43,526 bases of DNA from Vibrio sp. 10N.286.49.B1 (GTDB taxonomy: Bacteria; Pseudomonadota; Gammaproteobacteria; Enterobacterales; Vibrionaceae). The stretch spans positions 326,959 to 370,484 of the forward strand of contig NZ_MCUW01000089.1 of NCBI RefSeq assembly GCF_002873335.1. The letters are read 5' to 3'. Numbering within the stretch: position 1 is the first letter of the stretch; every line of letters begins with the position of its first letter. Made by a program: the position numbers and the translations under genes. Shown here piece after piece: positions 1,845-28,650 of the stretch. The notes under the pieces were generated by a model. It ran no database searches, was not told where the DNA came from, and saw nothing but the letters and a program-made list of their open reading frames with translations.

Positions 1845-1978
1845 CTCACTTTTGCCCCAAAACAAGCCAGAGCAGGATTGAGTCCAAATTCAAGGCTCGC
1901 AATTTGACTTACTTTTCCTCATGCAAAAAAACCTCTATCTATGTGGCCAAATTTGATAATCCACTACAGGCAAACATA
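1845..1978 (-). mobile_element. Element end 'A' (type 2 terminus, outer tip at 1978)
   Basis: Read on the minus strand from 1978 it begins TGTAGTGGATTATCAAATTT and continues into GGCCACATAG. About 100 bp further, the subterminal part matches the ends at 23,675 and 28,526: a shared AAAAGTAAGTCAAATTG block and a GGGGCA block about 115 bp in. The outer tip abuts a truncated oxidoreductase-like frame, so 1978 looks like a real insertion boundary with the element lying to the left. The matching opposite end is not in the window. No transposase family could be assigned. Confidence 0.6.
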
Positions 1979-2078
1979 GTCAGCACGACAGCTTCTGAGT
2001 TACTTGGAAGAGAAACAACTTCTGTAAGTGAATATATTCATGAGAACAGAGGCAAGTGGCTGCTATAGAATCGGTCTA
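1979..2078 (+). pseudogene. 3' fragment of an NmrA/SDR-like NAD(P)-binding oxidoreductase
   Basis: Immediately right of element end A, one frame reads ANIVSTTASELLGR, then ETTSVSEYIHENRGKWLL and a TAG at 2076-2078. This LxGRxxTSVxEYI...W pattern resembles the C-terminus of NmrA-like SDR oxidoreductases (azoreductase/quinone-reductase type). Only the last ~33 codons remain and the frame is cut exactly where the repeated element tip ends. The assignment rests on a short stretch. Nothing else recognisable was seen from 2079 to 2338. Confidence 0.5.
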
Positions 2079-2338
2079 CCTAACAAGTAAGTTATGAACG
2101 CTGCGTAGCTGGCGCGTAAACCCAAGTGCTGAACAAGCAAGAAGCCACTGATCTCTGGAAACCTAGTGATGCTGCTAACTGCAACAAAAACCGAAAACGG
2201 GGGCAGGTTTTGCCTTTTGCTCTACCATTCTTATTCGACATCTCTACTATACTAAAAAAATAAGCTCAGAAATGTTTGGAGCCTTCACATCGCGATAATC
2301 GCTGGCCAGGTTCAGCCCCAAAGTGAGCCACAGCCGAG

Positions 2339-3781
2339 CTAGAGTACTTCATACTGTTCAAGAGCAGTGTGTAAACAACAATCGTAATGTGCTATTTGCT
2401 CATTTGAAATCGCACCTCGTGGATTGATTTTAAAATCATTAAGTGATGTGTATTCTCTTCCGTCCTTTTGCTTAATAAAATCACTTTTTACTTGCTTAAG
2501 AAATTCTTGATTGATCATCAACTCTAAACCTTGTGCGGCTAAAACATGCGCCGCTTGCAAGCTTGCCTTTTGACCAATTGATGTTCCATTACAGGCCGTG
2601 CAACCCCATTGATGTGGTGGGATATACTTTGGCCACGATGCGTAGATGATTCCCATTGTTGGTACATTCCAACTAATATCACCAACATCTGATGATCCAC
2701 CAACTTCAACACCTTTTTGTACCGGTGTTACGTCAGTTGCAAGACCATCTTCCGGCTTTCCCATTTCTTTTTGTATTTTTTTTGCAAATTCTTGCTCTTC
2801 TTCGGTCCAGCTAATTGGGAAATAGCGTTTCATATGGTCGGTAATGGAATCAGCCATAACATCGTTAGGTAAGCAATCATAAATGCCACCAAGGTTCGTT
2901 ACTTCTGTTGTGGTTTGAGTTGATAGCGCTGCGCCTTTTGCAATATCTTCAAGCCATTCTTTATGCTTGCGAATATTTTCAGCGCTCTTACCACGATATC
3001 GCACCAATACTTTAGCATAGTCAGGAACAACATTTACGGCAGATCCGCCATTAAGGATCTGATAGTGTAAACGACTCGTAGGCTCTAGTTGTTCACGCAT
3101 CATATTAGCTGCGACTAAAAATACTTCCGCGGCATGTAAAGCACTGCGTCCTTCCCAAGGTGCGGTGCCTGCGTGAGCGGTAACGCCATGCCATTCAATC
3201 AATAAGTCTATCGATGCTGCCGAGTGGAAATTCACCGCGGTGTTAAGCATAGCTGGGTGATTATGTAGACAGGCATCTAACTCATTAAATAGCCCAGTTG
3301 CTGCCATATAGTTCTTACCATTTAAAGCTTCTTCAGCAGGACAACCGTAGACTTTTATAGTCCCAACAATATTCTCTTTTTCCATGTGATTTTTGAGCGC
3401 TATGGCAGCACCAATTGATGTAGCACCAATCAAATTGTGCCCACAGCCGTGTCCATTGGGATTGCCATTCTTAGAAGGCTGCTTTGTCGGTACGGTATCA
3501 TTGCCTAGATCGGGGAGTGCATCAAACTCAACAAGATAACCTAATACCGGTTTGCCAGTACCCCATGTCGCAACCCAAGATGTCGCGAGGCCTGCAATGT
3601 TACGTTTTTCAATGGTGAACCCATGGTTTTCTAATACAGCACTTTCTAGCGCAGAGCTTTGAAACTCTTCGTAGCTTAATTCAGCGAACTCCCAAACATT
3701 CGATGCGATGTCCCAGATTACGTCTGAAAGTTTGTTGACTTCGTTATCAATTTTTTTGTAATTAATCATGCGTTTACCCAT
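2339..3781 (-). CDS. M20-family amidohydrolase, AbgB-like
   Basis: Cytoplasmic metal-dependent amidase of peptidase family M20D. It resembles AbgB, the p-aminobenzoyl-glutamate hydrolase subunit, and other N-acyl-amino-acid amidohydrolases. The 480 residues are the usual length. Visible signatures: GYLVEFDALP (about 81-90, the catalytic Asp), HGCGHN (111-116, with the Cys and His that bind the metal pair) and PAEEALNGK (148-156, catalytic/metal Glu pair). The late segment PKYIPPHQW near residue 390 supplies the last metal-binding His. The start could be Met1 (3781) or Met5 (3769); neither has a strong ribosome site. No AbgA or AbgT partner lies nearby, so the physiological substrate is unknown. 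It stands alone, with a terminator upstream at 4056-4095. Confidence 0.85.
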   Translation of the reverse strand: MGKRMINYKKIDNEVNKLSDVIWDIASNVWEFAELSYEEFQSSALESAVLENHGFTIEKRNIAGLATSWVATWGTGKPVLGYLVEFDALPDLGNDTVPTKQPSKNGNPNGHGCGHNLIGATSIGAAIALKNHMEKENIVGTIKVYGCPAEEALNGKNYMAATGLFNELDACLHNHPAMLNTAVNFHSAASIDLLIEWHGVTAHAGTAPWEGRSALHAAEVFLVAANMMREQLEPTSRLHYQILNGGSAVNVVPDYAKVLVRYRGKSAENIRKHKEWLEDIAKGAALSTQTTTEVTNLGGIYDCLPNDVMADSITDHMKRYFPISWTEEEQEFAKKIQKEMGKPEDGLATDVTPVQKGVEVGGSSDVGDISWNVPTMGIIYASWPKYIPPHQWGCTACNGTSIGQKASLQAAHVLAAQGLELMINQEFLKQVKSDFIKQKDGREYTSLNDFKINPRGAISNEQIAHYDCCLHTALEQYEVL

Positions 3782-4055
3782 TAATTTTTATCTAGTGGAC
3801 CAGCGATATGGAGGTTAACGTGTCATTAACGTTCATGACCTCCTGCCTATAGAGCAAGAATACGGGGAATGAATACATTCAATAAATCCGCTAAGATGGA
3901 CGTCATCCTCAGTTTTACTGATCAAGTACGTTACCAATGAGATCCACTCAATCGAACACGGGCAAGACGAACAGCCCAACCACCGCGCTACGACAGTCTT
4001 TGTGATTGTTAGATTAGGAATTAGTGAATCCCTGTGTTCTGCTTTGTTGACGTGT

Positions 4056-4095
4056 AAAAAAGAGTCTCAGTGTTCGCACACTGAGACTCTTTTTA
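4056..4095. terminator. Bidirectional rho-independent terminator
   Basis: An 18-bp near-perfect stem (4056-4073 with 4078-4095; core GAGTCTCAGTGT/ACACTGAGACTC, loop TCGC), with A's on one side and T's on the other. It lies just downstream of the minus-strand exported-protein gene and separates it from the M20 gene. The remaining 3782-4055 shows no gene. Confidence 0.9.
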
Positions 4096-4111
4096 TTTAG
4101 TTTAGGTCATT

Positions 4112-4867
4112 CTAAAAATAGAATTTGTAGTTCGCCCACACAACGGTGTCGTCAATATCCATTGTTTTATTTTTTGATTCCATAGAGCCATAAGTATTAT
4201 CAACTTTTAACTGGCCCCAACGGGTTTTATCAGCAGAAAATGGCGTTGCAATCATAAGTGTTGATTTGACTAAAGAGGTTGTAATATCACCGTCGAGATA
4301 GTTGTATTCTGGCCATGCTCCAATATAAGTGCCATCATTACCGAGTTGATAAATCATGTAAAAAGCAGCAGAAACACCTAGCGCCTCTTTACTATCGGCA
4401 TCAAGGTAATCGGCTGATTTATCCGAATACTCACCTGCAGTGATCCCTAACCTTGGAAACAATTGTAGGCCTTTTACACCAGTATCGATGGCAACGACAC
4501 TTCCTAAGGAAGCAGAAGAAAACATGTCGTTGTCAATCAAATCGACCGATAAAGCGACTCGAGGAGCAATGGCATTTTCTGTTGTAAAGACATGAAAATA
4601 TTGGGCACGACTGTCTGAATACTTGCCTTCTTTATCCATTGTCGCTTCTACAGTCAACATACCCTTTTGACCGTTGTCAAAGTTAAAGTCCCCAGAAATA
4701 GAGCCTTTTAAAGAGCCTTGATTGTTAAGACCGAAATACGCTGAAGTGCTTGTTTCAGTCAAATCGGATGGGTTAGGAGTCGAGTCGTCAGCCATCAGTG
4801 GATTAGCGATGCTTAATGCAATAATTGAAAGGGTTAATTTAGTTAATTTTTTCACTACTATTACCAT
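4112..4867 (-). CDS. Exported beta-rich protein of unknown function, possibly outer membrane
   Basis: Not recognised as a named family. The protein has a Sec-type signal peptide (KKLTKLTLSIIALSIANPLMA, cleavage near Ala26 before DDS), then a beta-rich sequence with repeated short strands and many Asp/Asn turns. It ends in an aromatic strand WANYKFYF with a terminal Phe, as in outer-membrane beta-barrel proteins. At 251 residues it could be a small barrel or a periplasmic protein that docks to the outer membrane. The start is taken at the ATG 4867; a GTG at 4855 is also possible. It lies between the TRIC operon and M20 gene on the same strand, followed by a strong terminator. Confidence 0.7.
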   Translation of the reverse strand: MVIVVKKLTKLTLSIIALSIANPLMADDSTPNPSDLTETSTSAYFGLNNQGSLKGSISGDFNFDNGQKGMLTVEATMDKEGKYSDSRAQYFHVFTTENAIAPRVALSVDLIDNDMFSSASLGSVVAIDTGVKGLQLFPRLGITAGEYSDKSADYLDADSKEALGVSAAFYMIYQLGNDGTYIGAWPEYNYLDGDITTSLVKSTLMIATPFSADKTRWGQLKVDNTYGSMESKNKTMDIDDTVVWANYKFYF

Positions 4868-5111
4868 TATAGTTTAATTATGTCCTTCTTCACGTTGGGT
4901 CTGATTTGTCGCCCCTGTTTCCTTACACGATTAGTATTGCGTCGTAATTCAAGTTCACGTAATCGTCTGGGACGGATGGCATCATCACTAAGCGGTAATA
5001 GCAACAACTGTGGCCACTCAAGCCCACTATTGGCGCTCTTATAGGCTCGGTCACAGTCAACTTTAGCGAATTGGAACGTTGTACAGGTTACGGTAACCTG
5101 AAAATTTTCGT

Positions 5112-5145
5112 AAAAAAAAAGCCACTTTATTTTACAAAAGTGGCT
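5112..5145 (-). terminator. Minus-strand rho-independent terminator below the TRIC gene
   Basis: Stem AGCCACTTT/AAAGTGGCT (5120-5128 with 5137-5145), followed on the minus strand by a run of eight to nine U's (5111-5119). It ends the leftward transcript coming from 9298 through 5423. The 277 bp between it and the TRIC stop (5146-5422) shows no gene. A 93-codon frame starting inside the hairpin was rejected. Confidence 0.85.
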
Positions 5146-5422
5146 CATTGGGAGTTAAAGATATGGGGTAATTAATCGTGTTTCTTAAACGATAACTCGG
5201 GGGGATCCGTTTTTAACTTCATCTTTGTAAATCACCCCGGATTTTACAATAGTGTAATCAGATATTTTATATCATTATTAGGGATTATTTGATAAGGGCA
5301 GAAGTGAGCCGTGAAACAATCAAAGTTATTCGATAAAAAACTGTAACTGTCAGTTCTGAGTTATTCAAGTAGAAGAACAACACCGTGTAACTCGATAACA
5401 TCGCATCTATAGTAGTAGACTA

Positions 5423-6061
5423 TTACTTTGGATTAATAACAGCCCAATTTGGAACCACAAGATTTTTTTGAATCACAATGTGGCGTAAATAGATGATGAC
5501 CGCAGAAGAAACAACGGCGCTGACATCTGAAAAGCCAGGAGCATACGCTAATGTCAACGCGTGCATAGCCCCTCCTAGTGCAATAGGGATAGCATATAAC
5601 TCTCTAGATAAAATTAATGACGGCCTTTGTAAAAGCAGATCGCGTATGATTCCACCGCCTACTGCTGTCATTGTCCCTAAGATTACAGGAGCGATGGGTA
5701 AACCAAACCCAAAAGACCAGGCTTTTTCAGTACCTTGAATGCAAAACATAGCGATCGCAAAAGCATCAATATATAAATATGCTTTCGTTGTCCATTTTTT
5801 TTTCAAAAAAGAACGAGAATAAAATCCGATAATTGCAGCGACAATTGCAATGTATATATAAGAGATATCTTCTGACCAAAATATTGGCGCATCCAATAAG
5901 CAATCTCTAATAGTACCTCCGCCTACCGCAGAAATTATTCCTAGCACTATAATTGAAAATATATCAATTTGTTGTTTTGTAACTGCTAATACTGCAGATA
6001 TAGAAAACCCAGCAGTTCCAAGCACTGTTAAAAAATCAATAAAAGAAAAATGACTTAACAT
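5423..6061 (-). CDS. TRIC-family cation channel (YicG/UPF0126-like) membrane protein
   Basis: Inner-membrane protein of 212 residues with about seven hydrophobic helices, arranged as two homologous halves. Each half carries the family signature: AVGGGTIRD (about 45-53) and AVGGGIIRD (about 133-141). The GGG kinks and following Arg-Asp are what define bacterial TRIC (trimeric intracellular cation) channel homologues. It is the last gene before a strong terminator, 141 bp below the G3E GTPase gene on the same strand, so it may be co-transcribed with it. Its ion selectivity in bacteria is not settled; a link to metal supply for the neighbouring hydrolase is only inference. Confidence 0.88.
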   Translation of the reverse strand: MLSHFSFIDFLTVLGTAGFSISAVLAVTKQQIDIFSIIVLGIISAVGGGTIRDCLLDAPIFWSEDISYIYIAIVAAIIGFYSRSFLKKKWTTKAYLYIDAFAIAMFCIQGTEKAWSFGFGLPIAPVILGTMTAVGGGIIRDLLLQRPSLILSRELYAIPIALGGAMHALTLAYAPGFSDVSAVVSSAVIIYLRHIVIQKNLVVPNWAVINPK

Positions 6062-6202
6062 ATTTATCTCAAAATAAAAATGTGGGTAGATGACATTGCT
6101 TTAAATTAAAACCATGTCATCTTTAATCAGTGCTCGAGATCAAATCAACCTATTAACACTGATGAAGGTAGAATGCAATGAATTAATGGAAACTTAGAAA
6201 TC

Positions 6203-7279
6203 TTAGTTTTTAATACAACATTCCATTAGGTCAAACTCTAATTTACATCGATCTAATTCGCCTTTCTTGGAAATAAATACGATGTTTGACAGTTTATCCT
6301 GATTACCCCATACACCAGAATTTGAGAAACTCCACCGTGTCCCCACTCGTTGGTAGGTCACTTTATTATTTAAACTATCTGAAATGTACAGAATCCCTTT
6401 AGCACGAATTACAGTCGTTGGTAACTGATTGAAAAATGTACTTAGTTTATCGCGATCCATTGGAACAGATACAGTTAAACTAATACTCTCAAAGTTATCA
6501 GAGTGTGATTTATCTCCTATTGGGAATATTTTAATGGATTGGCCAGGCTCAGACAGTCCTAATATTGCTGCTGCAGGTACTTTGCCATATTCACTTTTCA
6601 GTATTGCCTTTTTTGGATACTGCTTTTCTAGGTACTCAATAACCTCAGTTCGAGTTTGCGAAGAAGCAATATCCAGCTTGTTTAACAGCAAAATATCCGC
6701 TGATTGCATTTGTCTGGATATTGTTCCAGCAGTGTACTCAGTTTCTACTTGAGTCAATAGTGTCTCAGCATCTAATACCGTAATTATTCCATCCAAATAT
6801 ATAGCAGGATTAACCAGTGCCACTTGAGCAATGCCATTGGGTTCAGCAATGCCACTTGCTTCTATGATGATCGCATCTGGCGCGTCTTCTTTCTCTGTTA
6901 ACTCCATCAAAGTCTTGGTTAAGTCTCCAGAAACAGCACAACATGCGCAGCCATTGGTGAGGCTAATCATCTCATCTGTTTTCGATTCAATCAGGTCTGA
7001 ATCAATATTGATTCGCCCAAAATCATTAACTAAAACGGCAAGCTTCATTCCATGAGGTGTATTGAGTATATGGTTTAAAGTCGTGGTTTTACCCGACCCT
7101 AAAAATCCACTCAGTATTGTCAAAGGTAGAGACTTTTTAGCTAATGTTGGTTTGTGTTTGCGCATTGCCATTGCGGCAAAAAACATTCCTGATAGAGCTC
7201 GACGACTTTCTTCCGTTTTAGTCTGAACATCTGAGTCTAACGCGCTCGCACCAGAATTTTGATCATCAAGTGGCTTCAT
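6203..7279 (-). CDS. COG0523 (CobW/YeiR/ZNG-like) G3E GTPase, putative metallochaperone
   Basis: GTP-dependent metal-insertion protein of the G3E/COG0523 family. Walker A is GFLGSGKTT (58-66). The diagnostic metal-binding motif is GCACC (110-114, the CxCC motif), followed by EASGIAEP and the guanine-specificity motif NKLD. A CobW_C-type domain ends in a Cys pair (LMECCIKN). An N-terminal extension of about 50 residues precedes the GTPase core and is longer than usual. The start codon lies 2 bp after the stop of the amidohydrolase gene, implying translational coupling. COG0523 proteins deliver Zn or other metals to client enzymes, so the adjacent metal-dependent amidohydrolase is the obvious candidate client (inference). 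No Zur box was identified. Confidence 0.9.
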   Translation of the reverse strand: MKPLDDQNSGASALDSDVQTKTEESRRALSGMFFAAMAMRKHKPTLAKKSLPLTILSGFLGSGKTTTLNHILNTPHGMKLAVLVNDFGRINIDSDLIESKTDEMISLTNGCACCAVSGDLTKTLMELTEKEDAPDAIIIEASGIAEPNGIAQVALVNPAIYLDGIITVLDAETLLTQVETEYTAGTISRQMQSADILLLNKLDIASSQTRTEVIEYLEKQYPKKAILKSEYGKVPAAAILGLSEPGQSIKIFPIGDKSHSDNFESISLTVSVPMDRDKLSTFFNQLPTTVIRAKGILYISDSLNNKVTYQRVGTRWSFSNSGVWGNQDKLSNIVFISKKGELDRCKLEFDLMECCIKN

Positions 7280-7281
7280 AA

Positions 7282-8946
7282 TTAGTCTTTCGCCTCAAAT
7301 TTGACTCCACCTTTTACGGTGCCCCAAATTGGAATGTCTTTGATAGATTTTGACTCAACGTCCAATGGGTTCTCATCAAGAACAGTAAAGTCCGCAAATT
7401 TACCCTGTTCGATGCTGCCTAATTTGTTCTCCATACCAAGAATGTAAGCCGCATCAATGGTGACAGCTCGAAGTGCTCTTTCTACGCTAATACATTCATC
7501 GGGTGCAACGACGGTTTCGCCATCTTCTGCGACACGATTAACAGCAGCATATACTGCAGTTAGAGGTAACATAGGGACAACTACTTGCGGATAATCAGAG
7601 TGCAAAGCAAAGGTGACACCTTCTCTTTCAAGTGTGGCTAAACGACCTACAGTATCTGAACGGTCAGGGCCATACGCATGGTTTCTATGCAACAAGCTAC
7701 GGTAATGCGAGAAATAGTTATTGACGCTAGCAACCCCTCCTAGGTTTTTTAGTCTACGAGCCTGCATTTGATTACTCATCGCGTAGTGCTCCACAGTAAA
7801 TCGATGATCAAAGCGCGGGTGTTTTGCTTGTAATTCGGCTAAAGCATCCAGCGTCAGATCAATCGCGAGGTCACCATTTGCATGACAATGTAGCTGAAGC
7901 CCTGCGTCCCAATATGGCTTCATTAGTTTTGCTAATTCGCTATCACCTGGTTGACCATTTGTGCCATCTAAAAACCCTGGAAAGCCCACCAACGATCCCA
8001 TCAGCGGAAATGAACCGTCACTCATGAATTTAATGCCACCAAAAAACAGGTCATCGGTTTCATTTTTCTTAAGCGTATCCATGAAGCTAGGGCCAGCAAC
8101 GCCAAACTTAGCATTCAGTGCAGCTCCGTAAGGCGTTAAACGCATACGAACCGGAAATTCAGAATCTTGCGTTGCGGCCTGATGGTCAGCAAGTTCAACA
8201 TCAAAATCAAGTACGCCGAACATCAAATCAGCAATCGTGGTGACGCCTGCTCGATTGGCAATATCAGCCATGAACTTAAGGCCACTGACACCGCTAGCCT
8301 CTGAAATTGTCTGCATTATCGGGATCAGTGCATGGCTACATGCTTCGGGTTCTGTCACTATTCCTTTCAAGCGACCATCTTCATAAAACTTAATATGAGG
8401 ATCGTTGGTATGTTGTGGAATATTAGAGAGCTCAAGCGCCGGACTGTTCATATAAACCAAATGTGGTGCCCAAGAAATCAGGTAGATTGGTCGAGTCGAG
8501 CTGATCTTATCCAAAGTGTCTCGTTCTAAAACACCGCCACCTTGCTTAGCCTCGTCGTATCCCCAAGCAATTAACGGAGTGGTAGGGTCTTTTTCTTCTT
8601 GATCCGCTTTGCGTAGAAAATCTAAAATTTCGTCACAGTTTTTTAGCGGTTTATTCAAGCCATTTCTTCCTGGCCAAGTTAGTGGACCAATAAAGTGCAA
8701 TGACATAAAACCAGACGACATCCAGCAATGAGAATGTGGTTCTATGAACCCGGGCAGGATAACTTTGTTTGCAAAAGTATTGTCCACTTCCCAATCATAT
8801 TGAGCCAGCCAAGGGGACATAGAATCAATGGTTCCTGTTGAGAGCACTTTTCCATCGAGTACCGCTACCGCGTCTACCTCTGGGCGACCAGGATCCATCG
8901 TCAGAACGTTCTTAGCTGTAAATACGGTTACTTTATTATTTTTCAT
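7282..8946 (-). CDS. YtcJ-type amidohydrolase (amidohydrolase_3 superfamily)
   Basis: Metal-dependent hydrolase with a TIM-barrel flanked by a small beta domain. Visible signatures: LPGFIEPHSHCW (the HxH metal motif after strand 1), LQLHCHANGD, VEHYAM and FALHSDYPQVV (late His and Asp ligands), and the C-terminal GSIEQGKFADFTVLDENPL typical of the superfamily. It has 554 residues from the ATG at 8946, chosen because AGGAAAAA lies about 8 bases upstream; an ATG at 8964 would add six residues. There is no signal peptide, so it is cytoplasmic. It sits between the small barrel-like gene and the CxCC GTPase on one transcript. The substrate of YtcJ-like enzymes cannot be read from sequence (N-substituted amino acids and cyclic amides are known for relatives). 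Confidence 0.88.
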   Translation of the reverse strand: MKNNKVTVFTAKNVLTMDPGRPEVDAVAVLDGKVLSTGTIDSMSPWLAQYDWEVDNTFANKVILPGFIEPHSHCWMSSGFMSLHFIGPLTWPGRNGLNKPLKNCDEILDFLRKADQEEKDPTTPLIAWGYDEAKQGGGVLERDTLDKISSTRPIYLISWAPHLVYMNSPALELSNIPQHTNDPHIKFYEDGRLKGIVTEPEACSHALIPIMQTISEASGVSGLKFMADIANRAGVTTIADLMFGVLDFDVELADHQAATQDSEFPVRMRLTPYGAALNAKFGVAGPSFMDTLKKNETDDLFFGGIKFMSDGSFPLMGSLVGFPGFLDGTNGQPGDSELAKLMKPYWDAGLQLHCHANGDLAIDLTLDALAELQAKHPRFDHRFTVEHYAMSNQMQARRLKNLGGVASVNNYFSHYRSLLHRNHAYGPDRSDTVGRLATLEREGVTFALHSDYPQVVVPMLPLTAVYAAVNRVAEDGETVVAPDECISVERALRAVTIDAAYILGMENKLGSIEQGKFADFTVLDENPLDVESKSIKDIPIWGTVKGGVKFEAKD

Positions 8947-8983
8947 ATTCTTTTTCCTATTCATGTTTGGTTAAGTTGTAGGG

Positions 8984-9298
8984 TTAGGCTTTAACTAAAT
9001 GCTTGCTACTCAGTAAATGAGTCTTGATTTCTAATACACTCGCAAGTGATGCAAGATCTTCAGTTTGCTTAAGACGCAATGGACTGATTAACCATTCTTC
9101 ATAAGATGACTCGAGGTCCCAGCAACAGTGAACCCAAGTGACCTGAGTGTTATCATTCGATTTTAAAATTTCCCCAAACTGAAAACCGGGGATAGACTCA
9201 GCAGCCTCTTCAATACAGCGTCGGTCAGTCCATACTTTTGCTACATCGCAATCACTTCCATCAACAGCGGTTATCATCATAAAAGAGTGAAAACTCAT
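8984..9298 (-). CDS. Small protein, possibly ferredoxin-like/dimeric alpha-beta barrel
   Basis: A 104-residue soluble protein heading the leftward operon. Not recognised with certainty. The pattern of two predicted beta-alpha-beta halves (FMMITAVDGSDCDVAKVW, then a Trp-rich strand VTWVHCCWDLESSYEEWL followed by a short Leu/Arg helix) recalls the antibiotic-biosynthesis-monooxygenase fold. No catalytic assignment can be made. It lies 37 bp upstream of the amidohydrolase start and directly opposite the divergent LysR gene, so it is probably the first gene under LysR control. Confidence 0.65.
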   Translation of the reverse strand: MSFHSFMMITAVDGSDCDVAKVWTDRRCIEEAAESIPGFQFGEILKSNDNTQVTWVHCCWDLESSYEEWLISPLRLKQTEDLASLASVLEIKTHLLSSKHLVKA

Positions 9299-9368
9299 AT
9301 TTCGTTATCTCTACATGGGTTGGGATAGGTGCTATTTTATAGGGGAAACATCAATTCACCTTATCGCT

Positions 9369-9391
9369 AAGTGAGGACGCGGTTCTCACTT
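9369..9391. promoter_or_regulatory. Candidate operator in the LysR/hydrolase divergent region
   Basis: A perfect 7-bp inverted repeat, AAGTGAG (9369-9375) and CTCACTT (9385-9391), with a 9-bp spacer, lies in the 235-bp region between the divergent LysR gene and the hydrolase operon. Interrupted dyads of this size are typical LysR-type recognition sites. The assignment is positional and has not been compared with other genomes. Confidence 0.45.
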
Positions 9392-9533
9392 TGTTAAGAG
9401 CAATGATGCAGAGAAACAGTGGTGGGGTTAGTGTTGTTCTCATCGTCAGTAAATAAGCGGGCTACGCGAATTACTCATAGTCAGATTTAAGTGATATATT
9501 TAGTCGATCTAACATACTTTTGGGGTACTACGG

Positions 9534-10445
9534 ATGAATTTTAGTCTCGAGCAATTGGTGGCTTTTGTTGCGGTTTATGAGGAACGCTCTTTTAGTAAAG
9601 CAGCAGCAAAACTTAATAAGCATCGCACAACAACCGGGCAGGTTATTGCTAACTTAGAAGACACACTTGCGGTTGAATTGTTGGTTCGAGAGGGGAAATA
9701 CGTAGAGCCGACAGAAGAAGGCCATTTGCTTTATCACTATGCAAAATCGATTATCGATCAATCTAATATCTTTGATAAAATTTCTATGAGTCTTGCCTAT
9801 GGTGAATTGGAATCTATCTCTATAGGTTACTCCAGTATGATACCGCTAGGTTTGTTGCACGCAATACGACGCCAGTTAACAAGTGACTTTCCTAACATGA
9901 AGGTGAACTTTCTAATTAGAAATAAAGCAGAATTGGAAGAAGAAATAAAGGAAGGAAGCATTCATTTTGGTATTGCAAATGTGCATCACGGTAAAGGGAT
10001 GTTCGATATGGACTCTCGTCTAATAGGTTACATTGAGTTCGTGCCTTTTGTGAAAAAAGGAGGTCTTCTCGCACAGATGCCTGCAGAGAGCACACTAGGA
10101 AAGCTGCGAAAAACCAAGCAATATGTTTTAGGGGCTTTTTCGCAGGAAAATTTGAAAGAAAAAGTAGTATTGTCAGCGGTACATGAAGAAGTCGACCAAC
10201 TCGCTTTAATCATAAAAATGTTGCAGGACGATAACTGCTGGGCATGGTTACCTAAAGTTTTATCTGAATCATCTTATACAACCGAACATTTACAGGTTTT
10301 GGACATTGAGCAACTAAAACACGGGCTAAAATTTCCTTTTGCATTGTGGAATCCACACTCCAAACCACTACTGCCCATTAAGAAATCAATAGTAAAGGCT
10401 GTAGATGAATATACACAACATTTTACAGACCTACTTAAGCACTAA
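9534..10445 (+). CDS. LysR-family transcriptional regulator
   Basis: A 303-residue LysR-type regulator. The N-terminal winged helix-turn-helix is seen in LEQLVAFVAVYEERSFSKAA, AAKLNKHRTTTGQVIANLED and ELLVREGKYVEPTEEG. A linker and a periplasmic-binding-protein-like effector domain follow (from about residue 90). The ATG at 9534 is preceded by a GGGG-containing ribosome site. It is divergent from the barrel protein-amidohydrolase-GTPase operon, the classical arrangement for a LysR activator of the adjacent operon. The effector is unknown; a substrate or product of the amidohydrolase would fit. Ends close to a bidirectional terminator shared with the convergent acylase gene. Confidence 0.9.
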   Translation: MNFSLEQLVAFVAVYEERSFSKAAAKLNKHRTTTGQVIANLEDTLAVELLVREGKYVEPTEEGHLLYHYAKSIIDQSNIFDKISMSLAYGELESISIGYSSMIPLGLLHAIRRQLTSDFPNMKVNFLIRNKAELEEEIKEGSIHFGIANVHHGKGMFDMDSRLIGYIEFVPFVKKGGLLAQMPAESTLGKLRKTKQYVLGAFSQENLKEKVVLSAVHEEVDQLALIIKMLQDDNCWAWLPKVLSESSYTTEHLQVLDIEQLKHGLKFPFALWNPHSKPLLPIKKSIVKAVDEYTQHFTDLLKH

Positions 10446-10494
10446 ACTGATGACAATGAATATGGTCGTTTATGTTTTTCTCTGATTTCAAGTA

Positions 10495-10532
10495 AAAAGG
10501 CCAATTTAGTCAAACTGACTAAATTGGCCTTT
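10495..10532. terminator. Bidirectional terminator between lysR-type gene and acylase gene
   Basis: A perfect stem AAAAGGCCAATTTAGTCA (10495-10512) with TGACTAAATTGGCCTTT (10516-10532) and loop AAC. A/T runs at both edges serve the two convergent genes. Confidence 0.9.
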
Positions 10533-10540
10533 GCTGTTAA

Positions 10541-11656
10541 CTACTTAATTTCAACAGAGTTTGCGTTGAATTCCGTTGGAATATCAAAGTACGATACTTT
10601 ACCCGTTGTAAAATCAATGTCTTCTAATTCTACCTTTACATACTCAGGGCTGTGGTATGACTTAATATACATAACCTTATTTTCTAAATCACTTGCCACT
10701 GTCCAAGCCACGGTTTGTGAGTAGTCCTTTCCATCAGTATGACGATACATTTTGTAACCGTTCGGGATTTCAAAAGTGTTCATAATGCTAATGGCAGCAT
10801 GAATACCCTCTTTGGCGCTATCGAAACGAGGCATTTCTTGGCTAAACCGTGCTGCACGAACAAATCGGTTAGCAGCCGTTGGTTCACCATCAAGAGATTG
10901 CAAGCTACCAACATCAAGACCACCAGCCGTTACCTTCTCGTTATTCTGTAGAGGAACAGCTTGATCTTGTGGTAGGTGTGTATAACGCTTCAAGTTTTCC
11001 TGGTGCCATTCAAAACGTGGGTTATTTGTGATCGTACCTAGCGGGTTATCGTGAACTTTCAATTCGCCATTGATGTATTCAATCACAACCGAATTGCCAT
11101 CAGCATCATTGATGTTGAAGTGAACTGTTGGTGAGAAATTCCAATCGTCAGCTTTCGGAACAATAGTCGCATCAATAATATTAGTATTTTTCAGTAGCTC
11201 AACAGCTTCATCAACCGTTTTTGCTTGTGAAAGCACATACGTTGCGATCTGCCAACCTGCAATTGATTCAGCGGATTCATCAGCACTATATTCACTCCAC
11301 TTTGCTGGCTCATACGGAAGGAAGAAAAATACGCCCGTCTGCAAACCATGCTCATTCAGACCTTCAGTGACGATATCTGAGTCATCACCCAGAGCAACCG
11401 TTGTTACCATGCCGTATTTAGCCTTCCAGGTTTTACCGTTAGCACCATCTGGCGTGTAGCCTTGGAAATCATGCCCACGTGGGTAGATCTTCCAAGACCA
11501 ATCGATCATTTCATCGCTGAACTCCATTGTTCGAGCTGCAACTACATCGCCGTTATCAGCGACCAAACGAATACCCGTACATGCGTCAGCCGCCGCTGAT
11601 GCTAAGAGCGAAGTGGCAAGGATTGATGCAGCTAGTTTTTTCATTTTAAATTTCAT
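10541..11656 (-). CDS. Secreted penicillin V acylase / choloylglycine-hydrolase-family amidase
   Basis: N-terminal-nucleophile amidase of the choloylglycine hydrolase (linear amide C-N hydrolase) family. A signal peptide ends ASAAADA just before Cys26; cleavage there exposes the catalytic N-terminal Cys in CTGIRLVADNG. The family Arg (AARTMEF) and the later TEGLNEHGLQTG, NNPRFEWHQ and TAANRFVRAARF blocks are present. 371 residues in total, normal for the Gram-negative periplasmic cluster. Relatives cleave penicillin V, and some cleave N-acyl homoserine lactones, rather than bile salts. The start at 11656 is supported by AAGG eight bases upstream. Convergent with the LysR gene, monocistronic. 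A role in acyl-amide scavenging or signal quenching is inference. Confidence 0.88.
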   Translation of the reverse strand: MKFKMKKLAASILATSLLASAAADACTGIRLVADNGDVVAARTMEFSDEMIDWSWKIYPRGHDFQGYTPDGANGKTWKAKYGMVTTVALGDDSDIVTEGLNEHGLQTGVFFFLPYEPAKWSEYSADESAESIAGWQIATYVLSQAKTVDEAVELLKNTNIIDATIVPKADDWNFSPTVHFNINDADGNSVVIEYINGELKVHDNPLGTITNNPRFEWHQENLKRYTHLPQDQAVPLQNNEKVTAGGLDVGSLQSLDGEPTAANRFVRAARFSQEMPRFDSAKEGIHAAISIMNTFEIPNGYKMYRHTDGKDYSQTVAWTVASDLENKVMYIKSYHSPEYVKVELEDIDFTTGKVSYFDIPTEFNANSVEIK

Positions 11657-12042: not shown

Positions 12043-12144
12043 TGTAGTGGATAAGTAAAATTGGCCACTACATTAAAGTTTTTGCTATACCCCAAGTAAT
12101 CCGTAAAACACTAATTTAGTCACCTATATAACACAGTTTTGTCC
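12043..12144 (+). mobile_element. Element end 'B' (type 1 terminus, outer tip at 12,043)
   Basis: Begins TGTAGTGGATAAGTAAAATT, then GGCCACTACA. Its first and last parts form an inverted repeat (TGTAGTGG/CCACTACA). For about 100 bp it aligns with the minus-strand readings of 22,152-22,051 and 26,635-26,534, sharing TTTTGCTATACC, CAAGTAATCCGT, CTAATTTAG and a closing TTTTGTCC. The tyrosine recombinase gene ends about 100 bp further in. End C at 22,152 is oppositely oriented, so B and C could bound one 10.1-kb unit. Confidence 0.6.
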
Positions 12145-12189
12145 AATTGTGTTTTATGAACGCAACCATCAAATTGCGTAAGGACTAAC

Positions 12190-18682: not shown

Positions 18683-19165
18683 TTTACAAACCGGATATGC
18701 GAGCGGATGAGTTCAGACTAGAACACCATTAATTATGAAACTCAAATAGTATCAACATGTTGTGTGAATCTAAAGAGAATTTCGGGACAGGACTACGAAA
18801 AGTTTCCGTATAAGCACCGAAAGTACGGAATAGATTAATTTGGTCTATTGCAATACTCGCTAGACTTTCAGTTCGTTGGGGCTAAGAAGTTTTGGGGCAG
18901 ATCTGAGTTACGGTGATCTACCCCGTCAGCACGGAAACAGCGCCTAACGTGTACTTCGCTCCAAAAAACTTTAAGTAATTGATTTTAATGTTACTTATAG
19001 GGAGCTACAGTGTGGTTTTTTATCACCTCGGATTGGCACATCTGCAATTGCGCTAGAATCGTCGATAGAGATCAGACGTCTAAAAGTATCCACAATGGGG
19101 CAGAATGTATGGTACCCCCCCGTTTTGCAAGTGAACCAGCAAAATAACAGAGTTGGATTACGCTA
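18683..19165. other. Gap with no gene seen
   Basis: 483 bp with no convincing frame. At 18,894-18,915 TTTTGGGGCAGATCTGAGTTA resembles the inner block of the type 2 element ends (GGGGCAGAAACAAGTTA at 23,784), so part of it may be a decayed copy. A run of seven C's occurs near 19,115. Confidence 0.5.
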
Positions 19166-21875: not shown

Positions 21876-22050
21876 ATAGAACATCCTTCGCCCCTTCTAA
21901 AGCTCCATTGATTACTTTAAAAGGTAAGCTAAATGAGTTCCGCCAAAATCCCTCGGTAGTTAATGTAATGACAAAGTCGCTTGGTAGTTACGATACGACA
22001 GAATTGCTTGGTGATCACAGAACAACGCTTCATACGACCTCAGGTCGCAC

Positions 22051-22152
22051 GGACAAAAATGTGTCATACACTTTGCTAAATTGGTATTTAATGAATTACT
22101 TAAGGTATTGCAAAAACTCTTACCTAGTGGCCAAGTTTAATCATCCACTACA
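22051..22152 (-). mobile_element. Element end 'C' (type 1 terminus, outer tip at 22,152)
   Basis: Minus-strand reading from 22,152 begins TGTAGTGGATGATTAAACTT, then GGCCACTAG, and aligns over about 100 bp with ends B and D, closing with TTTTTGTCC. It faces end B, so B and C bound 12,043-22,152 with TG...CA termini. The immediate flanks of B and C do not show a matching target duplication. The 1,69x-bp ISNCY element ends about 80 bp inside it. Confidence 0.6.
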
Positions 22153-22241
22153 CATGAATCCTGTTGATCAATCTGGAATCTGTAACTATGTTGATAGTGA
22201 TGAACTATTCACCACCATAGAATATTCTTGGAGACTCTACG

Positions 22242-22736
22242 ATGCACAAAGGAAAACTAACGCGTTATTTCATTGGGTTGATTTTTGCTTTCAACCTCAC
22301 TTTGGCCAACGCTGATGGTCAAGACCAAACTACGCAGACCTTAGAGGTTGCTCAGGCGTTCTTAATGGCTGCTGGCTCGGGTGACATGAACAAGCTAAAT
22401 GAATTGATGGCCGATGATTTTGTTTGGCATAATGAAGGTGACTCACAAATCCCTTGGATCGGCACATGGGAATCAAAGAAAACCGTTCTTGAAACCTTCC
22501 TGCCACGCTTTGGTGCAGGCTTAAAGGTAACCAGCTGGACAACTGACTACAGCTTTGTGAATGGTGACCAGGCTGTGTTTATGGGTACGATGAGTGCTAT
22601 AGCCAATGAAACTGGAAAGGATACTGGTGTATTCAGTTGGGCCGTTCGTGTACATGTTGAGGATGGCAGTGTTAAGGGTTGGAACTGGTTCGAGAACAGC
22701 TACGCAGTCTCTCAAGCCTATCATGACAAAAATTAG
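22242..22736 (+). CDS. Secreted NTF2/SnoaL-like protein
   Basis: 164 residues: a signal peptide (cleavage after NLTLANA) then a single NTF2-like alpha+beta domain with the typical opening VAQAFLMAAGSGDMNKLNELMADDFVWH and the closing strand KGWNWFENSYAV. SnoaL-like domains bind small hydrophobic ligands or act as isomerases/hydrolases; no specific reaction can be assigned. GGAG upstream supports the start. Convergent with another NTF2-like gene, with a hairpin between them. Confidence 0.75.
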   Translation: MHKGKLTRYFIGLIFAFNLTLANADGQDQTTQTLEVAQAFLMAAGSGDMNKLNELMADDFVWHNEGDSQIPWIGTWESKKTVLETFLPRFGAGLKVTSWTTDYSFVNGDQAVFMGTMSAIANETGKDTGVFSWAVRVHVEDGSVKGWNWFENSYAVSQAYHDKN

Positions 22737-22757
22737 GTCGTCATTCTCGAGTCATCA

Positions 22758-22790
22758 CTCTCAGTGGCAGTTGGTATATACCACTGAGAG
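22758..22790. terminator. Hairpin between the two convergent NTF2-like genes
   Basis: CTCTCAGTGG (22,758-22,767) pairs with CCACTGAGAG (22,781-22,790). There is no strong T-run, but its position between two convergent stops suggests a bidirectional terminator. Confidence 0.6.
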
Positions 22791-22803
22791 CGTTGAAAAT
22801 ACG

Positions 22804-23550
22804 TTAAAACTTACCGCCGTTTACCCATTCCACCTTAGGTGGCACAAGCTCTTGATTAACCCATAACTCTCTTATTTTACCCCCCTGCAAACTGAAAATA
22901 TCAAAACGAGCGATCTCTTGACCTTCTTGTTTTACTCGACTGAAAGCGACAACAAAGTTGCCTTGTCCGATGATCTTAAAGACGTGGTCATAGCTACCAA
23001 CATAGTCATCAAACACGCCAACCCCCTTTGAAGCATGAACAACTAGCTCATCTAGATCAATGTAATCGGCTAGCCTTTCACGGTGTCCTAACACCATTAC
23101 ATCGCACAAAAAATTGCGCACGGTTTCTTTATTGGTATCCGTTTTCTCAAGATCATGGATCTCCGTTGGACCGTTGACTGCATCATTGATAGAGCCAGCA
23201 ATAGGCTCAAAAGCCGAGATTACATCCCAATGTTCAATAATTTTGTCCAGGTTATCAGTATCGAATAGATCTGTGGTCACCCATTTTGCGTCACCATTGT
23301 TGATGTCCTGATATGCCTGTAAAAACACATACTGACCATCAACGATAGAGCGAACAATCTGAATATCCCTAATCGGGCAACGCACCAAAAAGGGCTCGAA
23401 GAATTCAATAAAGCCTTCGATGCCATTCTTCACACCGGTACTATGTTGCGTATAGCGTCGGCCTGTATTATCTCTCACAGCCTGTTGGATATTGCCATCA
23501 CGGATACCATCGAGATAAAGGTTAGATGCACTCTTTAGTTTTTTGCTCAT
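22804..23550 (-). CDS. Two-domain NTF2/SnoaL-like protein
   Basis: 248 residues, cytoplasmic, with two NTF2-like domains in tandem. The first (about 5-118) includes YTQHSTGVKNGIEGFIEFFE and IIEHWDVIS. The second (about 135-240) includes DELVVHASKGVGVFDDYVG and GKIRELWVNQELVPP. The His-containing YTQH and VVH motifs and the closing HWD/LWV strands are family hallmarks. Related proteins are annotated as predicted SnoaL-like aldol-condensation enzymes. The shared fold with the convergent secreted gene suggests a related ligand, but they are not close duplicates. Confidence 0.75.
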   Translation of the reverse strand: MSKKLKSASNLYLDGIRDGNIQQAVRDNTGRRYTQHSTGVKNGIEGFIEFFEPFLVRCPIRDIQIVRSIVDGQYVFLQAYQDINNGDAKWVTTDLFDTDNLDKIIEHWDVISAFEPIAGSINDAVNGPTEIHDLEKTDTNKETVRNFLCDVMVLGHRERLADYIDLDELVVHASKGVGVFDDYVGSYDHVFKIIGQGNFVVAFSRVKQEGQEIARFDIFSLQGGKIRELWVNQELVPPKVEWVNGGKF

Positions 23551-23674
23551 TCACAATCACCATCTTAAAGTCGGATGTTCTCATAAAAGTAGACCCCCAC
23601 TACATTTTGTTCAACTTCTGTACATCAGAGCACTTATCTGCCGAGTCACCGTCTTACATTAGAAAATGTCGGTC

Positions 23675-23801
23675 TGTAATGGATTAGCAAATTTGACCAC
23701 ATAGTTAGATGCTCTAGGCATGACGAAAAGTAAGTCAAATTGAGAGGATTGAAATCAGGTTCAATACCGAGCTAGCTCACTTTGGGGCAGAAACAAGTTA
23801 C
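23675..23801 (+). mobile_element. Element end 'E' (type 2 terminus, outer tip at 23,675)
   Basis: Begins TGTAATGGATTAGCAAATTT, then GACCACATAG, and aligns with ends A and F for about 125 bp, sharing AAAAGTAAGTCAAATTG with A and the CTTTGGGGCAG block with all. It faces end D at 26,635, so together they bound a 2,961-bp unit with one type 2 and one type 1 end. The rest of 23,551-23,892 holds no gene. Confidence 0.6.
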
Positions 23802-23892
23802 ATAATGCCTCGCCGATAAGCCTATAGACATTATCAAGCCAGCCAAGAATGACTGGCTACAATAGTTTTCACACAGTTATGTTGATGGCAAG

Positions 23893-26304: not shown

Positions 26305-26533
26305 TTAAGTGTCCAGTCTGACTGGAGCAGATCACGTACTAAAAGGTGCAACTTTATGGACACTTGATAACGATTTGGTATTAACTTAGAACTCAAAAAA
26401 TAACTGCAGAACAGATAGGCTTAATACCTTTAGCCAAAATCTTCGAGACCGATCGCAAACAAAGCTAGACACCTACTGATTTTCTTCCCCTTTGCAAATG
26501 CTTTCGTACTAACTCCTCGTACAACAAGGTTCT

Positions 26534-26635
26534 GGACAGGAATGAGTTATATAGATTACTAAATTAGCATTTAACGGATTACTTGAGGTACAGCAAAACC
26601 TTTAATGTAGTGACCAATTTCACTAATCCACTACA
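26534..26635 (-). mobile_element. Element end 'D' (type 1 terminus, outer tip at 26,635)
   Basis: Minus-strand reading from 26,635 begins TGTAGTGGATTAGTGAAATT, then GGTCACTACATTAAAGG. It aligns for about 100 bp with ends B and C, including CAAGTAATCCGTTAAAT and a closing CCTGTCC. It faces end E at 23,675. The 26,336-26,533 stretch between the IS3 element and this end holds no gene. Confidence 0.6.
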
Positions 26636-26893
26636 GCTCGAATAAATAGTATTCTCAAACGATAGATAGGGCATGACTCGTAGAATTGCCATTTATTGTA
26701 TAGGCCGTAATAAGACGGCGATAGTCTCTTAGAGATTAGAAACAAACCAATTGAACAAGAAGCTAAATATACTCTAGCAATAAAAATGTCATTGATTTTA
26801 TTTGTAAGCATTTGTTTATCAAGAACTATCCCTATAAAAATTAAGTGTATAATTTCGTTTTTATGAGCATATAGATAGGGTCTCTCATTTTAG

Positions 26894-27661
26894 ATGGGAC
26901 AGTTTAAAACTATGACTTCAGTTGACGTAAATATCGAAAAAGACAATTCAGCAACAGTTAATCAAATCGAGCGCGAGTATTACACGGGAGACACAAAATT
27001 CCTGTCCTTTGTAATCCCTTTGCTTGTATTCATCTCCGCGATTGTTTTCTTGAACCATTACGACATGCAACAACCCGCACCAAAACTTTACAGCACCTCA
27101 CCTGAGCCGCTTGGGGTGGCTTTCTTTCACGCAACTAGCGTATTTGGCGGGTTTATTTACCTAGTTATGCTGTTCTTAGCTTTTGGTGGCTCAATCAACA
27201 TGCGCAAGGTTGGTCAAGAGGTTACCACCTACTCAAATGGCAAGGTAATTGTCACTGACATTAAAGAGCGCATCTCTGATTTAGAAATCAAACGAGATAC
27301 AGTTGCAGGCAAAGGGATCTCAGTCGCACTAAAAGGCGGCACTATCACTGCATGTATTCCGGTTACTTATGTCGTTACATCAGAGAGCCTTGGTTTAGGT
27401 GTTAGTTATGTAAACTTGGGGTTCTTTATGTCCCTTGGTGCAATCGTCGCGACAGTCTTTTTTTCAGCAGCAGCTGGGCTTATTTTCTCTAGCATCTGCG
27501 GAATGATTAATGAAAATACTAAAAAGGTAGAGGAATACACAACCGAGTACGGGACTTTAGGAACAACTATCCAAAGAACGTTCTTCTGGTTGGTAAGTGG
27601 TGTAGTTCTTCATAAATTCTTGCCTGCAACATATAATTTAATCCTAGGTTTCTTTAGTTAA
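26894..27661 (+). CDS. Multi-pass membrane protein, unknown function
   Basis: 255 residues, not recognised. About four hydrophobic segments: FLSFVIPLLVFISAIVFL (about 36-53), SVFGGFIYLVMLFLAFGG (about 82-100), the paired FFMSLGAIVATVFFSAAAGL region (about 175-200), and a C-terminal FFWLVSGVVLHKFL. Between segments two and three lies a roughly 70-residue soluble part with YSNGKVIVTDIKERISDLEI. ATG at 26,894 or 26,912. A same-strand membrane gene follows after 183 bp. The pair lies between element ends D and F. Confidence 0.7.
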   Translation: MGQFKTMTSVDVNIEKDNSATVNQIEREYYTGDTKFLSFVIPLLVFISAIVFLNHYDMQQPAPKLYSTSPEPLGVAFFHATSVFGGFIYLVMLFLAFGGSINMRKVGQEVTTYSNGKVIVTDIKERISDLEIKRDTVAGKGISVALKGGTITACIPVTYVVTSESLGLGVSYVNLGFFMSLGAIVATVFFSAAAGLIFSSICGMINENTKKVEEYTTEYGTLGTTIQRTFFWLVSGVVLHKFLPATYNLILGFFS

Positions 27662-27844
27662 AGAAAACACTAACACTATAAATATCAGGTTCGTAAGACA
27701 CTGCCGCTTTGTCTCATAATTATTAACTGTACGTAAAAATAATCACGATTTCCGTCAGTTCTTCATCAGGCATTTATGACCTAAATGATGACATTATCAA
27801 ACAGTTGTAGACCTTTAAATAAAATTAATTTTGGATAAATAGCC

Positions 27845-28426
27845 ATGGCTAAGAAAGACATTTTTGTAGTAAGAGCGATTAACATAGAGTTCTCTAAAGG
27901 ACGTTACATTTTATTTAAGGACGGAACTGATACTCCAGAAATGGAGTGGGTTTCCTTTACAGACAAAGACACTGGACGTACACACAGACTGGAATGTGTG
28001 ATGACCACTCAGGGACTCTTGAATGCAATGATTGAATTTCAAGAAGCTGAACTGGAAATCGTATATTACCAAAACCCAAAAGAGAAACGCTCTTATATTG
28101 CTGGAGTTAAGACGTACGAGGTAGATGGTGAGCTGACTGGAACCCACTCAATGAATGAATACAGTAATTTAACAGTAAGTAATCTCGATGATTTCAAATC
28201 GAATCGAATCTTTACGTATTTCTTGTTCTTTTCTTTCTGCCTAGCAGCAGCATATACAACATTGAACTCATACGACCTATTGATGTCTTTGTCCTGTGGT
28301 GGTGCCGTTTTACTTGGTATTCTGTCATTCTTAAAGATGTTGACCATTAATGGCACCCATGACGTCTTTAATCGTCTAAATCAACAACTCAGAAAACACG
28401 GTTACGAGATTAAAAAGTCAAGCTAA
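27845..28426 (+). CDS. Membrane-anchored protein, unknown function
   Basis: 193 residues, not recognised. A soluble N-terminal domain of about 120 residues (beta-rich, with SKGRYILFKDGTDTPEMEWV and LEIVYYQNPKEKRSYIAGVK) is followed by two adjacent membrane helices (TYFLFFSFCLAAAYTTL and DLLMSLSCGGAVLLGILSFL). A short basic tail ends it. The topology is a cytoplasmic or periplasmic sensor-like head on a hairpin anchor. Same strand as the four-helix protein upstream, probably functionally paired. Confidence 0.7.
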   Translation: MAKKDIFVVRAINIEFSKGRYILFKDGTDTPEMEWVSFTDKDTGRTHRLECVMTTQGLLNAMIEFQEAELEIVYYQNPKEKRSYIAGVKTYEVDGELTGTHSMNEYSNLTVSNLDDFKSNRIFTYFLFFSFCLAAAYTTLNSYDLLMSLSCGGAVLLGILSFLKMLTINGTHDVFNRLNQQLRKHGYEIKKSS

Positions 28427-28525
28427 CCCAATGTTCACAAAATGCTCACCTAATGGTGGGCTTTAAATATAAAACACCTGCCCACTGGTCTGGTTGTAGA
28501 TATATGAACACGTAGAGACTAGGTG

Positions 28526-28650
28526 TGTAATGGATGAGTATATTTGGCCACATGGTTAGAGTGCAGGTACAAGAAAAAGCAAGGCAAATTGCTTCACCAT
28601 GGCTTGCTTGGTCATGCGACTCTAGCAAACAATGGGGCAAAGGCGAGTTA
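28526..28650 (+). mobile_element. Element end 'F' (type 2 terminus, outer tip at 28,526)
   Basis: Begins TGTAATGGATGAGTATATTT, then GGCCACATGG, and aligns with E and A, with AAAAAGCAAGGCAAATTG and AATGGGGCAAAGGCGAGTTA at the inner positions. The unit it starts would extend right, but only about 330 bp remain before ffs, and no partner end was seen. It is probably a stump. 28,427-28,525 holds no gene. Confidence 0.55.

Follow-up and report, generated by a model that had tools for sequence, protein, structure and literature searches.

In the pdif (Xer-dif) modules of Acinetobacter plasmids, gene modules lie between short dif-like sites whose orientation alternates from one neighbour to the next; dif itself has an 11-6-11 geometry. 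Strand-biased circularizing integrative elements (SEs) carry intA, tfp, intB and srap between repeats of 13–19 bp with a 6-bp spacer (PMC9345347, PMC10214605). Here we analyse a 43,526-nucleotide stretch of Vibrio sp. 10N.286.49.B1 (contig NZ_MCUW01000089.1, positions 326,959 to 370,484; hereafter the window), in which six copies of the motif TGTARTGGATNA introduce two types of conserved block. We conclude, with a probability of about 0.72, that these repeats are parts of an integron-like cassette system whose units end at a 30-bp site.

The repeats were picked out in a sequence-only reading of the window, and all six exist as exact matches to TGTARTGGATNA, at 1968(-), 12043(+), 22152(-), 23675(+), 26635(-) and 28526(+); five of the coordinates given for them were right, and the first had been placed 10 bp off, at 1978. 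With at most one mismatch allowed, TGTARTGGATNA has 8 matches in the window, against a mean of 1.62 in shuffled sequence, and 0/100 shuffles reached 8. Alignment bore out the two block types behind TGTARTGGATNA: type 1 spans 103 columns, its four copies (one from another part of the genome) having a mean column identity of 90%, and type 2 spans 132 columns at 76% identity over four copies. The view that these are two different ends of mobile units, in diverged copies, also stood, as did the statement that the window holds no matching transposase: none was found. The types had been said to share only their outer ~30 bp, which is correct in kind, the common part being roughly the first 36 bp. 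Two further full copies lie in the same genome (type 2 at C12:333036(-), type 1 at C12:336784(+)); the other six exact TGTARTGGATNA pattern matches fetched outside the window are without such a block.

What changed is the side on which the unit lies. When tips of this genome are paired so that their blocks face away from each other, a type 1 is joined to a type 2 block in 4/4 cases, and inward pairing gives a pair of two type 1 blocks. Several fetched arrays show a type 2 block abutting, tail to tail, the type 1 block of the next unit. TGTARTGGATNA is therefore not the tip of an element with the unit inside, as had been proposed, and marks instead the border between a conserved arm and variable cargo, the true unit ends being the far ends of the arms, at the 30-bp site. 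The undescribed mobile element of the sequence-only reading survives in its two unlike ends of movable units; its inside and outside were swapped, and its transposon character is disfavoured. The repeats are not local, since the type 1 model matches 137/148 Vibrio genomes (E≤0.01; only part of the candidates from these 148 genomes of the genus were scored). Among 20 closed genomes searched at E≤1e-4, type 1 was found in 20 and type 2 in 17, and a search of phage records with the type 1 arm gave no match.

Nearly all of 83 arms (49 type 1, 34 type 2) bear one motif at their far ends. A 20-bp weight matrix, hand-built on 69 of the 83 junctions (five of the 69 from the window), detected 210 distinct sites at a score of at least 16 in the fetched loci. 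The 30-bp site has a 12-6-12 design, with consensus arms CTAACnCR and YGnGTTAG, variable inner bases and a centre that reads GGGGCA in 98 and TGGACA in 95 of the 210 sites. Agreement between the left 8-mer and the complement of the right 8-mer was 4.1/8 at one register and 1.5–2.4 at 12 others; the left arm is an independent finding because it lies outside the weight matrix. Inverted arms around a short conserved centre, with breaks at the centre, are features of tyrosine-recombinase substrates, and in appearance these are sites of a tyrosine recombinase rather than the inverted repeats of a transposon. In 13/210 cases, versus 0 in shuffled sequence, the right arm is repeated in inverted orientation immediately downstream of the site, which is too few to build on.

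The sites follow one another in a constant direction. Neighbouring type 1 and type 2 matches in the 20 closed genomes point the same way in 39/40 pairs within 15 kb (one G018 pair being counted twice, owing to a duplication) and in 16/16 pairs within 3 kb; the lone exception is on a small circular plasmid. This order disfavours transposon insertion, which would not produce it. Distinct neighbouring sites in the fetched loci (15 bp to 12 kb apart, score of at least 14) lie on the same strand in 142 pairs and on opposite strands in 10. Read in the site direction, the site after TGGACA is GGGGCA in 55 pairs, none closer than 400 bp (median 2,101 bp), and that after GGGGCA is TGGACA in 45 pairs with a median spacing of 54 bp, 34 of them at most 120 bp apart; in 42 neighbouring pairs the same centre type is repeated, breaking the alternation. 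The spacing thus identifies the cassette as the TGGACA-to-GGGGCA unit, with a short joint between cassettes. Joints fold better than shuffles at z<-2 in 5/8 cases tested, one joint giving z=+0.2, and the joint hairpin is accordingly common, not universal. In G168, a match to PAGEV RNA (L072, 3118-3323; 80.9 bits) adjoins a cassette array.

Replacement of whole cassettes is visible in related conjugative plasmids of Vibrio (pAQU type), in which flanks 98–100% identical surround one locus between parA and an NYN-domain gene. We compared nine records (L164, L167-L174), of which L173 has only part of the locus and is not informative. Towards parA, five alleles are the same to the base as far as TTGGACA and diverge immediately after it; towards the NYN gene, eight alleles coincide from GGGGCA rightward and have five different left neighbours. 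Among the units at the locus, as identified by PADLOC and annotations, are a viperin-like operon that has a type 1 arm, a gene of the SIR2 family, a DarT-like one, a UvrD-type helicase, a TPR protein, AbiEii and qnrS2, as well as a stretch containing QnrVC6 and dfrA. One locus thus harbours different cassettes, with breaks at the centre edges, which argues that cassettes move. Similar breaks occur elsewhere: a V. crassostreae plasmid and a Shewanella baltica plasmid share a methyltransferase gene and type 2 arm (99.8% over 1,036 bp), and this identity ends on the right directly behind TGGGGCA, where the arm has its far end; the common cargo of L023 and L030 (83.9%) loses identity where the type 1 arm ends on its far side; and the match between L169 and L172 also breaks after GGGGCA. 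The quinolone-resistance gene qnrS2 appears to travel as such a cassette; in V. alginolyticus pC704 (L174, 4900-5955) it is the sole annotated gene between two sites. A region of pAQU-type plasmids, perhaps another locus, has been called a gene-exchange hotspot or variable region, in passages that name no mechanism (PMC12406693, PMC12753305).

Two pAQU-type plasmids carry, beside a site, a 197-amino-acid (aa) tyrosine recombinase whose sole Pfam match is Phage_integrase and whose NCBIfam matches, of Xer and integron type, are far below the cut-offs. Relatives at E≤1e-20 are present in 64/148 genomes. In a first set of 30 top-scoring loci (score of at least 12), a site lies 20–400 bp upstream of the gene in 12/30, all 12 in one direction, and 24/28 sites across the whole loci agree in direction. 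At 13 loci with at least 77% identity, the best upstream motif is found at 140–205 bp in the same direction in 11, with three below score 12. A second set of 20 longer, hand-picked loci (score of at least 14) gave one direction for 42/42 sites on the 5' side and 10/10 on the 3' side of the gene, which starts 95–153 bp from the first site in 13/20 loci; the reversed-sequence control returned 0 sites in 373,517 bp. Plasmid sites likewise agree with gene direction in P. damselae (3/3), S. baltica (6/6) and Pseudoalteromonas (3/3) at a score of at least 11; among plasmids with ~55% relatives, Marinobacter yielded one site at score 11.2 (its reversed control also one) and Rhizobium none. Taken together, we think it reasonably likely that the small recombinase is the acting enzyme.

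We propose that a full cassette would run from a TGGACA site through a type 1 arm (~100 bp), cargo genes and a type 2 arm (~125 bp) to a GGGGCA site, and that other cassettes would have the same sites without these arms. Within an array, the GGGGCA site would be followed by a short, often hairpin-forming joint (~54 bp) and the next TGGACA site. A tyrosine recombinase would very likely exchange DNA within the six central bases; as the centre is asymmetric, cassettes would enter and leave in one direction and stack head to tail, and we are fairly confident that they are mobile units moving in this manner. The usual enzyme would most likely be the ~197-aa protein, reading away from a site ~95–170 bp before its start. 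The two alternating centres suggest that the moving unit may be a cassette plus joint, bounded by like centres. We infer excised circles, the identity of the recombinase, and roles for the arms and joint hairpins from this arrangement.

Several points weigh against such a cassette system. The sites, their direction, their grammar and the replacement at one plasmid locus are read from sequence comparison, not from excision, circle or integration events, and alleles were compared at the pAQU locus. The two ends of a cassette differ in their centres, so that simple end-to-end excision mismatches at 2/6 bases. Some boundaries do not coincide with sites: the left limit of the V. crassostreae/S. baltica identity is an IS3-like end, a match between L029 (G006) and window 20550-22152 (88.6% identical) ends at the TGTA edge, and pAQU records differ also where there is no site (for example, L164 21,508-22,526). 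Of the junctions omitted from the site model, at least six were offset or a poor fit. When left and right arms are exchanged among sites, the symmetry score does not change (4.00); the symmetry is thus a property of the consensus and not a co-variation. As to the enzyme, only 12 of the 30 first-set loci have the upstream site and 4/28 first-set sites are opposite in direction; a sub-branch at ~62% identity (8 loci: L188, L189, L191, L193-L195, L201, L203) has no site nearby and may have a different site or role. Four loci of the hand-picked set (G031, G161, G073, G121) were chosen on account of a nearby type 1 match, and L207 and L208 in it are near-duplicates. In the window genome, the best match to the small recombinase (E 4.3e-5) is not a close copy.

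One alternative, which we consider doubtful, holds that GmtY, GmtZ and GmtX or SE integrases move the cassettes and that the arrays are the cargo end of Gamma-Mobile-Trio (GMT) islands. Downstream of gmtX at 19 GMT loci, 28 sites point in one direction and 4 in the other, with 8 further sites upstream (score of at least 12; reversed control, 9 sites in 327,297 bp from 18 of the loci), and one plasmid match lies near gmtX and GapS6-type genes. The window array itself ends at a GMT stub beside ffs. Positions 28775..29088 match G015 with an identity of 91.5% over 319 bp, and in G015 an intact operon, gmtY-gmtZ-gmtX by NCBIfam, follows behind the 4.5S RNA gene; the window array reaches 28774, and there an IS3-like end meets the GMT-start sequence. 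By this comparison, the window array is probably the remnant of a GMT-associated array at ffs. The window genome (G000) gave no gmtX match, and only the start of the gmtY region is left in the window. Against GMT proteins as the movers, 7 of the 19 loci are without a site, and some of the loci are close relatives (L104, L112 and L113 share one first site); no site with a score of at least 12 was found just upstream of located gmtY starts; and GmtX is present in 23/148 genomes (22 over the cut-off), compared with 137/148 for the type 1 arm. In G008, five places near contig starts or ends have identical gmtX scores (L105, L106), as if the assembly were broken in repeated GMT copies.

The host recombinases XerC and XerD could instead move the units as dif-like modules, in the manner of Acinetobacter pdif, with the small recombinase as frequent cargo only. 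The 12-6-12 geometry is near that of dif, and arrays are present without a close small recombinase, as in the window genome. We nevertheless regard this as unlikely: pdif orientation alternates and the present sites run head to tail, in a direction that fits the small recombinase at 52/52 sites of the 20 hand-picked loci and 24/28 of the 30 top-scoring ones.

The undescribed family of the sequence-only reading would be one of insertion sequences (IS) or miniature inverted-repeat transposable elements (MITE) with ~30-bp inverted repeats, TGTARTGG...GGCCACTACA. A fused type 1/type 2 unit of ~208 bp does resemble a MITE with inverted ends, and the match between L029 and the window stops at the TGTA edge; head-to-tail arrays (39/40) are unexpected for transposon insertions, however, and the breaks lie at the other end of each arm, away from the tips, which makes such a family highly improbable. 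An IS3-family/MITE origin, considered for the ~208-bp unit and a loosely similar IS3 end in the window, was dropped after the orientation test and the break points. We also set aside the 12-kb duplication in G018 as a transposed element; it extends past the sites and is uninformative on boundaries. That the units are ordinary integron cassettes with unusual attC sites is just as remote, for although a recombinase reads away from the first site of a head-to-tail array, joints form hairpins and one pAQU stretch also has genes annotated DUF3265, QnrVC6 and dfrA, the motifs GTTRRRY and RYYYAAC occur in only 8/210 and 5/210 sites, the small recombinase scores 19.1 bits against TIGR02249 (integron integrase; cut-off 265) and 63.4 bits against NF040815 (tyrosine recombinase/integron integrase; cut-off 220), and breaks fall at centre-hexamer edges, not at G/TT.

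Returning to the integron-like cassette system, we mapped its parts in the window (Table 1). Eight sites reach a score of at least 14, compared with a mean of 0.53 and a maximum of 4 in 100 shuffles; their 20-mers lie at 1840 and 12127 on the minus strand and at 14473, 18893, 22049, 23783, 26532 and 28633 on the plus strand, three of them (14473, 18893, 23783) having no part in the training of the site model. Centres alternate between TGGACA and GGGGCA in both runs, with one variant, CGGACA, and delimit four putative, presumably mobile cassettes, A, B, D and F. In cassette B, no type 1 or full type 2 arm was recognised. The gaps at 18.9-22.0 kb and 23.8-26.5 kb occupy expected joint positions and contain transposons and other genes. 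Within 20365-22152, an rve-domain transposase gene adjoins the site at 22049. Within cassette B, a 607-aa protein (15687-17510) has below-cut-off matches to a GlyGly-CTERM family and the metzincin protease Mep72. At the contig end (43297-43526), a tRNA gene (43349-43430) lies between the copies of a perfect 53-bp direct repeat.

Table 1. Coordinates and strands of the sites, arms, putative cassettes and adjoining features of the window.
Feature	Position	Strand	Remarks
30-bp site, GGGGCA centre, 3' end of cassette A	1841..1870	-	site model
Type 2 arm of cassette A	1841..1968	-	block alignment
Putative cassette A, both arms included	1841..12157	-	bounded by sites; movement inferred
Gene content of putative cassette A (position and strand of the cassette): M20 peptidase, glycine transporter, CobW, amidohydrolase, LysR, choloylglycine hydrolase	1841..12157	-	
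Type 1 arm of cassette A	12043..12144	+	block alignment
30-bp site, TGGACA centre, 5' end of cassette A	12128..12157	-	site model
637-aa tyrosine recombinase (DUF6538 + Phage_integrase)	12248..14161	-	5' end ~310 bp from site 14462
30-bp site, TGGACA centre, 5' end of cassette B	14462..14491	+	outside training set
Putative cassette B: IS4/5-type transposase genes, GlyGly-CTERM protein, small open reading frames	14462..18911	+	
30-bp site, GGGGCA centre, 3' end of cassette B	18882..18911	+	outside training set
30-bp site, variant CGGACA centre, 5' end of cassette D	22038..22067	+	site model
Type 1 arm of cassette D	22050..22152	-	block alignment
Putative cassette D: two SnoaL-like genes	22049..23801	+	
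Type 2 arm of cassette D	23675..23803	+	block alignment
30-bp site, GGGGCA centre, 3' end of cassette D	23772..23801	+	outside training set
30-bp site, TGGACA centre, 5' end of cassette F	26521..26550	+	site model
Type 1 arm of cassette F	26533..26635	-	block alignment
Putative cassette F: 255-aa and 193-aa proteins without Pfam match	26532..28651	+	
Type 2 arm of cassette F	28526..28651	+	block alignment
30-bp site, GGGGCA centre, 3' end of cassette F	28622..28651	+	site model
Partial type 1 arm (model positions 15-102), runs into IS3-like end	28673..28760	-	adjoins last site
GMT island stub: ~first 55 bp of gmtY open reading frame and upstream region, plus 4.5S RNA gene	28775..29088	-	
4.5S (small SRP) RNA gene ffs, insertion locus	28982..29078	-	

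Site direction in the window flips at a 637-aa protein, the one tyrosine recombinase recognised among the scanned window proteins (none of the profiles used being specific to SEs). Its only NCBIfam matches, to NF040815 and the XerD model, score 26.4 and 22.6 bits, far below the cut-offs. Relatives were found in 63/148 genomes (E≤0.001), and the closest one found, at about 52-55% (G162), likewise has a type 1 arm 3' of the gene; in GTDB genome contigs, a pattern-based scan confirmed no relative. At a score of at least 14, nine of 14 loci of relatives from 14 genomes (L150-L163) are without a site, L150 and L153 have one each, and L151, L156 and L160 have several; as a general driver the 637-aa integrase was accordingly rejected. 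An SE, suggested by this integrase and the inverted repeats, was also set aside as unlikely, as arrays, cargo and site do not fit. In the window, the 637-aa protein holds a place similar to that of the small recombinase, and its role is uncertain; with the ~197-aa protein absent, the array is perhaps frozen or served in trans.

In broader terms, we see even odds that, independently of integrons, a second system of gene capture has been at work in Vibrio, Photobacterium, Shewanella and Pseudoalteromonas. With a ~200-aa recombinase and a 30-bp site of two alternating centres, it would build and reshuffle arrays of cassettes for defence and resistance, on chromosomes as on conjugative plasmids, and would also have put together part of the GMT cargo. 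Titles and abstract openings in the open literature, a search whose reach did not extend to the main GMT paper (Mahata et al. 2024), described no such system. The cassettes carry phage-defence and antibiotic-resistance genes among marine bacteria, and the sites offer a mechanism for the variable pAQU locus, at which qnrS2, a viperin-like operon, AbiE, DarT-like, SIR2 and other genes take one another's place between the same two sites in closely related plasmids. With its short, searchable signature, defence islands in marine bacteria could be resolved into individual mobile units, and the recombinase and its site provide a concrete candidate enzyme-substrate pair.

Of the known systems, SEs, GInts and RITs resemble the present one in their Vibrionaceae and other gammaproteobacterial hosts, tyrosine recombinases and resistance cargo (PMC9345347, PMC10214605); unlike SEs, the present system has a single small recombinase and arrays of many units. 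GMT islands share overlapping hosts, defence cargo and, where sites occur, mostly one-directional sites behind gmtX, but gmtX is missing from most genomes with the type 1 arm and no site was seen at the gmtY end; in gene content, too, both SEs and GMT islands are distinct from the present system. Both pdif and the present system have gene modules bounded by short dif-like sites; here the sites are constant in direction (142/152 pairs on the same strand), with two alternating centres, arms and an associated recombinase. The likeness to integrons is closest in architecture: a recombinase reads away from the first attachment site, head-to-tail accessory-gene cassettes follow from its gene (42/42 5'-side sites at the 20 hand-picked loci) and there is structure near the junction. 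In contrast to integrons, including the sedentary Vibrio integrons and CALIN, the recombinase is ~200 aa long and below every integron-integrase cut-off tested, a symmetric 30-bp site stands in place of attC, whose boxes are absent, cassettes have conserved arms at both ends and often several genes, and arrays are short and dispersed and occupy plasmid loci as well. The system thus works like an integron, yet stands apart from integrons on both defining points, enzyme family and attC boxes.

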